The notes under the pieces were generated by a model, which did not search any database, had not been told where the DNA came from, and saw only the letters and a program-made list of their open reading frames with translations. Shown here piece after piece: positions 8,410 through 11,068 of a stretch of DNA of 41,989 nt. Source of the DNA: Calothrix sp. MO_167.B42 (GTDB lineage: Bacteria; Cyanobacteriota; Cyanobacteriia; Cyanobacteriales; Nostocaceae). The stretch covers positions 1 to 41,989 of the forward strand of contig JASJCX010000014.1 in assembly GCA_030065255.1 (NCBI GenBank), given 5' to 3'. Each line of letters opens with the position of its first letter. Within the stretch, counting starts at the first letter, position 1. Both the position numbers and the translations under genes were made by a program.

Positions 8410-10320
8410 TTAAAATGAAACCACAGTTCTCAAGGTAGTTTGCCAAATAGTATCCTGGTTGCGATCGTTATCTGGATTCGTCACAAATGAGAATGCGGGG
8501 GTAATACTGAAATTTTCTTTCAATGATAAGTTGTAGAAAACCTCAAAATTGGTTTGAGTTGCATTACCCAATCCATTGGTGACAAAAGGCTGTCCCACTG
8601 CGATACCAGCCACACTACTGGGAATTAACAGATTGCGAAGTCCCAAACCTACCATCCAGGTGAAAGGATGTAAATCTAAATCTCGATCGATGGCGGTGTT
8701 AAATCCTTGGTAGCTACCAACTCCCCAACGGGTAAAAAGTCCCATATTTTGATTTAAAGCATATTCAGCATTAATCCCCAACGCATTTATATCAGTATTA
8801 TTAACTAAAGCATTTGTATATTGTAGCTTCAGGGATAAGCGATCGCTAGCTAAATATTCCACTTCCACAGTAGCTTGATACCTGTCGCCAAATAAACCAC
8901 CATTATTACCATCAGTTTGGTTTGCATCCCCAGCAATGTAAAGCGATCGCCAAAATAATTGACTATTTTCAGGATGCCAGACAACAGCCACCCCCGCACC
9001 ACCAGTATTATCGATTTGGTTTTGCACTATCAGGGGATTGTTGAGAAAAAAGCTGGAACTAAAATCCACTGCTTCATTATTGCCATAGGAATTGCGATCG
9101 ATAAAATCTCGGGGTGACATCTTTGCTCCCACAGTCATCTCCACATCCTGGAAAGGGCGAAAACTATAGTACAGTCGCCGTAACCGCAGACTTGATTCTA
9201 CCCCCACAATATCAAGTCCTCCACCATTAGCAATCAAGCCATTAGTTCCCAATAGATTGAGATTTTCTGACTGGGATTTAGTAATTGCATCGGTTCCATT
9301 ATTCCCAGCTTCTAATTGAGTTACCAGTAAATCCTCACCTTGGAAACTGGCATTGAGACTTAATCGGGTGCGGTTAATTACGGTAGTACTGGCTTGACTA
9401 CCATCAGTAAAAGCAAAAATTGCCTGTCCTTGTAACTTAGTAGTAGGAGAAAACCGTTGTGCTTGCAGACGATTAGCTCGTTCCTCTATTAAGCGTGTCC
9501 GCAAACGCAATTCTTTCAAAGCCACAGCAAAGTCTGTTTGTAACCGTCTGACAACCACCGCATCACTTTTGATATATTCATCACTAATATCTTCTGCCAA
9601 CCGGTCTAGATTATTTAGAGTAGCAAATAATACAGTGGTAAATTCGTGACGACTGAGGGGGCGATCGCCACGAAAGGTGTTATCTTCATAACCAGAGAGC
9701 ACACCATAACGTTCTACTAGAGCTTTCAAAGCTTGGTAAGCCCAGTGGGTGGGTTGAATATCTGATAGTTGGTCAACCGATGGTTGGGGAGTTACGGCCT
9801 CAGACTGGGTTTCTACAGAAAGCGGAGAGTCACTTGGCTCTCCGCTAGATGAAAATTCTGCGATCGAGAAACTTGGTTGGGTTTCTGGTGGGGAGCATCG
9901 CTTTGTCAGCGACACCCCTTGGGAGTATGGCAAATTAGTATTTCTGATGTCTGTTTTTAATCCAGTATTTTGCTCGGGAATTTTGCGGTGAATGTCGGTG
10001 TGTTTGGTGTCTGAATTGCGTTCAGTAATTTCCGGTGGTAGTGAATAAGTCGGAGATGAGCAACACATTAAACTAAATATACTGGGGAGCATCCCAATTT
10101 TGAAAAAATATGCCGTAGTGGGAGCATCTTGCTCCCTCGATATCAAACGCGGGCAAGATGCCCCAAAGTCGCTACAACGGGGGGAACCCCCGCAACGCGC
10201 TTCTCTGCGCACTACAGATTTAAACGTTTGGGATGCTCCGAATATACTGCAACCGACTAAACCAGCCGCCAAAAATTTATGAGAGTTAACGATCTGCTCA
10301 AAACTTTTTCTGACACTCAA
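8410..10320 (-). CDS. Cyanobacterial outer-membrane porin (SLH plus OprB-type barrel) with an in-frame insertion in its signal peptide
   Basis: 636 codons starting at TTG 10320 (no in-frame ATG upstream). Residues ~183-238 are an SLH domain (IQPTHWAYQALKALVERYGVLSGY), residues ~240-285 a helical linker, and ~290-636 an alternating beta-barrel ending in Phe, as in cyanobacterial carbohydrate/iron-uptake porins. Residues 28-82 derive from a 156-bp palindromic element plus a 9-bp target duplication; deleting that copy restores a smooth signal peptide, KFLAAGLVGCSIF joined to SLMCCSSPTYS. With the insert the hydrophobic core is split. A possible rescue is initiation at ATG 10092 (Met77), which lies in the element's end and would give MLPSIFSLMCCSSPTYS. 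Whether it is still exported is uncertain, so it could be a functional gene or an early pseudogene. Confidence 0.82.
   Translation of the reverse strand: MSVRKSFEQIVNSHKFLAAGLVGCSIFGASQTFKSVVRREARCGGSPRCSDFGASCPRLISREQDAPTTAYFFKIGMLPSIFSLMCCSSPTYSLPPEITERNSDTKHTDIHRKIPEQNTGLKTDIRNTNLPYSQGVSLTKRCSPPETQPSFSIAEFSSSGEPSDSPLSVETQSEAVTPQPSVDQLSDIQPTHWAYQALKALVERYGVLSGYEDNTFRGDRPLSRHEFTTVLFATLNNLDRLAEDISDEYIKSDAVVVRRLQTDFAVALKELRLRTRLIEERANRLQAQRFSPTTKLQGQAIFAFTDGSQASTTVINRTRLSLNASFQGEDLLVTQLEAGNNGTDAITKSQSENLNLLGTNGLIANGGGLDIVGVESSLRLRRLYYSFRPFQDVEMTVGAKMSPRDFIDRNSYGNNEAVDFSSSFFLNNPLIVQNQIDNTGGAGVAVVWHPENSQLFWRSLYIAGDANQTDGNNGGLFGDRYQATVEVEYLASDRLSLKLQYTNALVNNTDINALGINAEYALNQNMGLFTRWGVGSYQGFNTAIDRDLDLHPFTWMVGLGLRNLLIPSSVAGIAVGQPFVTNGLGNATQTNFEVFYNLSLKENFSITPAFSFVTNPDNDRNQDTIWQTTLRTVVSF
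10085..10240. mobile_element. 156-bp palindromic MITE-like insertion with a 9-bp target duplication
   Basis: AATATACTG occurs at 10076-10084 and again at 10241-10249, directly flanking 10085-10240. The ends of the insert are perfect 12-bp inverted repeats: GGAGCATCCCAA (10086-10097) and TTGGGATGCTCC (10228-10239). Inside are a second inverted pair GTAGTG (10115-10120) / CACTAC (10210-10215) and three hairpins (GGGAGCA/TGCTCCC, GGGCA/TGCCC, GGGGG/CCCCC). No transposase is encoded. Insert plus duplication equals 165 bp, exactly 55 codons, so the porin frame survives. Confidence 0.85.
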
Positions 10321-10782: not shown

Positions 10783-10871
10783 ATTTACCTGTTGTCCCTG
10801 TGGGTTGAATTTTATGTGACAACAATATTCTACAAAGAGATTTGAAGATAATGGGTTGAGATTGGGTTTCT

Positions 10872-11033
10872 ATCACACCCGCCTGGGACTATAAGTCCCA
10901 GTCTAATAGTCAAAGTCATATAAATATGACTATAAAAATAGCCATCAGAGCATTAATTATGAGGGGTATTTTCCAGTCGTCTTTAGACGACTTTAGCTAT
11001 TAGGCTGGGGTTTTCAACCCCAGGCGGGTGTGA
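10872..11033. mobile_element. 162-bp MITE-like element with 16-bp terminal inverted repeats
   Basis: ATCACACCCGCCTGGG (10872-10887) and CCCAGGCGGGTGTGAT (11018-11033) are perfect inverted repeats. Within lie several nested hairpins: GGGACTATAAGTCCC, AGTCGTCTTTAGACGACT and TGGGGTTTTCAACCCCA. No coding capacity and no clear target duplication. It occupies the gap upstream of gloA. Confidence 0.75.
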
Positions 11034-11068
11034 TGTAAATCTCATTTCACCACATTAGTTTTGAGGAG

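Follow-up and report, generated by a model that had tools for sequence, protein, structure and literature searches.

The porin gene on the window (the whole stretch of 41,989 nucleotides that was analysed) of Calothrix sp. MO_167.B42 is interrupted by a palindromic element of 156 bp (10085-10240), and this insertion was confirmed. We regard the element as a non-autonomous MITE whose mover was most likely a transposase of the ISKra4 type. The MITE entered codons 24-27 of the gene and left the reading frame open, probably by chance, with impaired export as the likeliest consequence for the protein. To this reading as a whole we assign a probability of roughly 0.8. The features are compiled in Table 1.

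Table 1. Features of the porin gene and of the element inserted into it (positions in the window)
Feature	Position	Strand	Basis
Porin gene (por_somb, iron uptake porin) with SLH and OprB domains, starting with TTG, 636 codons including the insertion	8410..10320	-	domain and profile matches
Target-site duplication, copy 1, AATATACTG	10076..10084		direct sequence; 8-9-bp duplications also at copies elsewhere
Terminator-like stem plus T-rich tail, from the element's end	10081..10098	-	consensus match, function not implied
MITE, 156 bp	10085..10240		ends, genomic copies, empty site in three congeners
Terminal inverted repeat, GGGAGCATCCCAA	10085..10097	+	first 12 bases recur at right ends of ISKra4-family IS
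ATG (Met77), proposed new start, judged unlikely	10090..10092	-	hydropathy, RNA fold
Nested 45-bp insert, edges +/-1-2 bp	10163..10207 (about)		common to the copy at G000:C76:7590-7746
Terminal inverted repeat, 12/13, outermost base changed	10228..10240	-	comparison with other copies
Target-site duplication, copy 2, AATATACTG	10241..10249		direct sequence

The element is short, has terminal inverted repeats of 12-13 bp and lacks a transposase gene. Its perfect 12-bp inverted ends lie at 10086-10097 and 10228-10239. In most of the other copies read, the end comprises 13 bp (GGGAGCATCCCAA), while base 10240 of the porin-gene copy is a G and not a C. The intact 9-bp duplication described by the first-pass annotation was found on both sides (9 of 9 bp), and all coordinates, lengths and residue numbers given there were exact to the base. 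Together, element and duplication add 165 bp or 55 codons to the porin frame, so that the residues SIF occur at positions 25-27 and again at 80-82. The annotation had proposed a transposase-less mobile element and a true insertion with target duplication, which was borne out by the ends, the duplication and the empty site in relatives.

The interrupted gene encodes an SLH domain (residues 186-227 of the 636-residue frame) followed by an OprB barrel (residues 258-636), and its product matched the iron uptake porin profile NF033921 with 234 bits, above the curated cut-off of 100, as is characteristic of por_somb. TTG was taken as the start codon because a stop codon lies immediately upstream. 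By eye, the same codon was recognized at this place in 11 out of 15 orthologues whose start region is visible, while L026 and L028 possess TTC there and an ATG two codons upstream, and L036 and L037 differ in their start region. Residues 21-24 of the porin (10249-10260) read LVGC and are kept in three congeners. We take this sequence to resemble a lipobox, but it is probably not one, as the more distant orthologues L025 and L027 carry LVGW. In the neighborhood of the porin gene, past the start of a glyoxalase gene, another large palindrome was found (10849-11057; 89-nt arms, 74% complementary, 31-nt loop), which is perhaps a further MITE-like repeat.

Sixteen orthologous loci were read (L022-L037), one of which (L032) is truncated by the end of its contig. 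In all other 15 orthologues the 55 extra residues were absent by eye, whose presence in distant species the annotation had named as evidence against its reading. The empty site with a normal signal peptide, which it had expected in relatives, was found in all three congeners. The alignment of their proteins is gapless at the site (GLVGCSIFSP, GLVGCSILSP and GLVGCTILSP), and their DNA contains CAGCATATT, CAGTATATT and CACTATATT, respectively, at the position of the two CAGTATATT copies of the window. One of the congeners, G001, was identical to Calothrix rhizosoleniae SC01 in a comparison of 300 bases. As the three congeners are empty, the insertion postdates the split from the C. rhizosoleniae lineage (dS about 0.39). 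Thus, the event, which had been called recent, can be bounded only: the duplication is still intact and the split sets an older limit. That the element is an assembly chimera or a misplaced repeat is hardly credible. Such errors might occur in a genome draft as fragmented as the present one (384 contigs, 80% complete), but the duplication is exact at both junctions, both flanks are collinear with the porin gene of the congeners, and the element should be short enough to be bridged by ordinary read pairs.

We also searched for further copies of the element. In its own genome 77 matches were obtained at E values up to 10 (self included), the next best of which showed 89% identity over 155 bp. 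The 13-bp end has 40 exact occurrences there and 94 if one mismatch is allowed, compared to three for the reversed control. The 77 matches and the excess of ends place the element beyond chance. Among the loci read, 24 copies with paired ends were counted in this genome, the porin-gene copy and 23 others; the absence of any other genomic copy, a second observation that would have contradicted the annotation, was thus not encountered. Six of the 24 copies have a length of 111-113 bp, the simplest form, while the rest are mostly longer and contain nested repeats of several kinds. The porin-gene copy is such a composite. Its 45-bp insert was found at the same position in only one other copy (on C76), and a 35-bp part of this nested repeat lies alone, without the MITE, at C153:15830 and C74:297 (100% identity), indicating that small repeats insert into one another in this genome. 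With a 111-bp query, 48 out of 60 genomes of the bacterial family gave matches, many of them to the inner palindrome only. A plasmid search with the MITE returned two records, and no RNA family reached its gathering score.

Duplications were studied in 79 end-paired copies from G000 (the own genome), G002, G003 and G005, which were picked from the listed matches and not at random; a boundary slide of one base was allowed. At 34 copies exact duplications of 8 bp (23 copies), 9 bp (10 copies) or 10 bp (one copy) were present, while 45 copies had no exact duplication. Many of the other copies, for which the annotation had suggested a search, thus carry duplications of 8-9 bp. In G005, the 13 bases adjoining the end were identical in 20 out of 22 copies read, which suggests that the MITE family has recently been active there. 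Nine copies of G005 (L158, L159, L160, L163, L164, L167, L171, L174 and L176) share their flanks and an intact duplication, AAATTGTT; they account for nine of the 22 copies read in this genome and for nine of the 34 with exact duplications. The flanks of L165 from the same genome are alike, but the duplication is absent. Perhaps the nine copies go back to a single event, in which a MITE residing within another repeat was spread as a composite.

Attempts were also made to identify the transposase moving the MITE. A profile search for ISKra4 was the entry point. At contig ends of G005, a transposase frame was detected that ends a few bases ahead of AAAAAATGGGATGCTCCC, and relatives of the C-terminus of this transposase are encoded by 90 out of 218 genomes of the bacterial family. 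Thirty IS loci of this family were fetched, 25 of which had a readable right end. Compared with the left-end form of the MITE family, GGGAGCATCCCAATTTTT (not the porin copy's own end), the right ends agreed at 16 out of 18 positions (13 loci) or 17 out of 18 positions (12 loci); the other five loci had no anchor (two) or a changed end (three). The porin copy, with G and not T at base 18 of its left end, agrees with the IS at one base less, and the right end of the MITE agrees with the IS ends over its first 12-13 bases only. A left end, in some IS beginning with GGGTGCA, was found in 13 loci, nine of which are flanked by exact 8-9-bp duplications and have a length of 1.16-1.22 kb. The partner IS contains two overlapping frames, the longer of which matched the ISKra4 profile (NF033572) with 287-300 bits (cut-off 205).

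With the right ends of these ISKra4-family IS, GGGAGCATCYCANTTTTT, the MITE shares its first 12 bases (or 11 of them), and the duplication lengths match as well (8-9 bp at nine IS copies, 8-10 bp at 34 MITE copies). It differs from them by the lack of a transposase and by its interior, for which palindromes and nested repeats of the MITE itself were found. Because of the shared ends and the duplication length, the element is most likely a MITE mobilized by an ISKra4-type transposase. A complete partner IS was not found in the own genome, of which an 80% complete draft was searched; the single ISKra4 fragment detected there (on C4) did not match the partner transposase. The congener G001 carries the 3′ end of an IS of the partner type.

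Other candidates were discarded. Some end pairs lie farther apart (414-2289 bp; L065, L066, L067 and L051, the latter from the own genome) and might have been autonomous elements, but no transposase was recognized by eye in the translations of these four. Of the PF01609 transposases of G002, G003 and G005, none was seen within 2 kb of the ends listed, which for G002 and G005 are a part of the total. A longer ISKra4-like IS had initially been considered as the partner, but the shorter IS of 1.16-1.22 kb fits the ends better. The longer IS (L085-L114), relatives of which occur in 70 out of 218 genomes, mostly ends with GGGAGCAAYGCG and exhibits exact 8-9-bp duplications at 12 out of 30 loci, with lengths of 1.8-2.3 kb; its transposase scored 113 bits, below the curated ISKra4 cut-off of 205.

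A copy was regarded as spanned if a frame of 100 or more codons was open across it and reached more than 60 bp past both of its ends. Four of the 79 copies were spanned, three of them by frames that are not gene-like by eye, the fourth being the porin copy, the only one within a recognizable gene. In the own genome the spanned copies were 2 out of 24, the porin copy and L063 with a 102-codon frame, while frames touch several further copies at a single side, among them L020 with a frame of 528 codons. Over all copies 72 out of 474 frames lack stops. From these values, about 4% (with an 8-bp duplication) to 6% (with a 9-bp duplication) of random insertions into a gene would leave it open and in frame; the own copies without the porin copy gave 4.3% and 3.6%, respectively. 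Since only one in 79 copies is genic and the odds of an open insertion are low, the porin insertion looks like a chance survivor rather than the work of an element built for entering proteins. The stop-free variant of the porin copy recurs in one copy of Calothrix sp. MO_167.B12 and is absent from the rest of the 79 copies. A requirement for selection after the insertion, which might have created the stop-free frame, was dropped on account of this second copy.

The opposite view, that the element has been selected for inserting in frame into proteins, is very improbable. It would explain why the porin copy is palindromic, stop-free and in frame, but besides the rarity of genic copies and of open frames, the inserted peptide is broken by stops in 36 out of 41 other matches listed in the genus (E below 1e-6; many of them partial). 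Palindromic elements of Rickettsia, the foremost example of in-frame fusions by intragenic MITEs in a review (PMC10969869), are similar in that a palindrome of about 150 bp is read in frame within a protein gene. They are described there as being often in frame in genes, in contrast to one out of 79 copies of our family, and frequent in-frame genic insertion with a conserved encoded peptide was not observed here. QMITE1 and QMITE2 of a different host, Coxiella burnetii, which we liken by their description, sometimes lie in frame within ORFs as well, according to PMC5896051; QMITE2 measures 150-190 bp and has direct repeats of 7-11 nt. Thus, in-frame insertion of a MITE is a known kind of event elsewhere, to which the porin gene adds a well-documented member.

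Within the Nostocales, Nezha and the MITEs of Anabaena PCC 7120 are likewise short, palindromic, multi-copy and mostly intergenic, as cited in PMC10969869, Nezha being likened by description. The same features apply to the MITEs of Anabaena sp. 90, for which PMC3542288 gives 147 complete or partial copies, 15 of them within disrupted ORFs that have become pseudogenes, and states that no IS of that genome has ends in common with the MITEs. The present case differs from that description by a porin ORF that stays open and by the IS partner type found. The literature searched did not contain, by title, a matching case of a MITE with a signal peptide or a porin, and a search for the end sequence of the MITE gave one unrelated paper. 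Nor did an earlier link between ISKra4 and palindromic repeats of Nostocaceae turn up in this literature, to which most subscription papers did not belong; for ISKra4 together with MITEs, one general paper was obtained. In PMC2246112, MITE appears in the title of a reference only.

Combining these data, we propose that the MITE copy carrying the nested 45-bp repeat was most likely mobilized by the transposase of an ISKra4-family IS. This copy transposed into porin codons 24-27 under duplication of 9 bp, and the porin gene stayed open because the length of the element and its stop-free frame happened to fit.

What the insertion does to the signal peptide was judged from the predicted properties of the N-terminus. 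The strongest hydrophobic core of 12 residues, FLAAGLVGCSIF, comprises residues 16-27 and has the same position in the porin with the insert and in the three congeners (hydropathy 2.20 with the insert, 2.02-2.11 in the congeners). The element starts directly after this core, so that what used to be the second half of the core, together with the former candidate cleavage region, now lies 55 residues away. For that reason impaired export is our first guess and, with odds a little better than even, the likeliest outcome. A loss could be borne since at least five other near-full-length por_somb genes exist in the genome.

Next in likelihood, at about one in three by our estimate, the signal may still work: its n-region and 12-residue core are intact, a candidate (-3,-1) cleavage site created by the element (GAS|QTF) follows residue 30, and the insert would lengthen the linker ahead of the SLH domain, which is variable among orthologues. 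Basic residues just after the core hinder Sec export. For the 25 residues past the best core, the net charge is +3 with the insert and -1 in the empty-site form, which speaks against a working signal, but this charge argument is weak as the congeners exhibit +2, 0 and +1. The retained frame and the low dN/dS are in favor of function. Between the empty-site form of the window porin and the congeners dN/dS was 0.23 overall and 0.17-0.18 beyond column 120, similar to 0.20-0.23 and 0.15-0.16, respectively, among congener pairs, so that no clear decay was recognizable in this comparison. On the other hand, amino-acid and silent changes were equally frequent on the window branch (27.5 each), compared to 21 and 39, respectively, on the G001 branch (p 0.09, rounded counts), at most a hint at relaxed selection. 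The annotation had seen a clear case of an element reshaping protein export. This was not supported; that the insertion built a working altered export signal, either by an N-terminal extension or by a start encoded by the element, is conceivable, but less likely than not.

The start in question, CAT/ATG at 10090-10092, corresponds to Met77 of the 636-residue frame and had been put forward as the beginning of a new signal peptide. Translation from this codon, or from the TTG at codon 59, would give a shorter signal peptide and restore the ancestral mature protein. In favor of this, the ATG is located ahead of what was once the second half of the core, and the former candidate cleavage site (TYS|LPP) has been preserved. 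We consider this quite improbable. The core after Met77 lacks a positive n-region and has a hydropathy of 1.64 compared to 2.21 for the empty-site form, no purine-rich ribosome site was seen by eye ahead of Met77, and the codon is paired within the terminal stem of the predicted mRNA fold, which for the inserted stretch amounts to -79 kcal/mol (shuffles -49.8, sd 3.8; z -7.8).

The same stable fold may have another effect. The end of the palindromic element might stop transcription or translation early and thereby silence the porin despite its open frame, in agreement with the terminator-like site on the gene's strand (10098-10081). However, this site is a consensus match, and two such sites were observed in the kilobase scanned where 0.7 are expected by chance (promoter-like sites in the region: 2 observed, 2.2 expected). 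Early termination is therefore, in our opinion, unlikely, albeit less so than the internal start.

Impaired export by a MITE that survived in frame by chance remains the preferred reading. With an insert in frame in the middle of a signal peptide and the empty allele known from close relatives, the porin gene provides a clean natural experiment. Should the export signal indeed be altered and functional, the gene would be an example from nature of a bacterial signal peptide that was remodelled by a MITE. Moreover, a widespread family of palindromic repeats of the Nostocaceae is tied to the ISKra4 transposase family, most likely its mover, and by this tie the movement of these repeats becomes testable.
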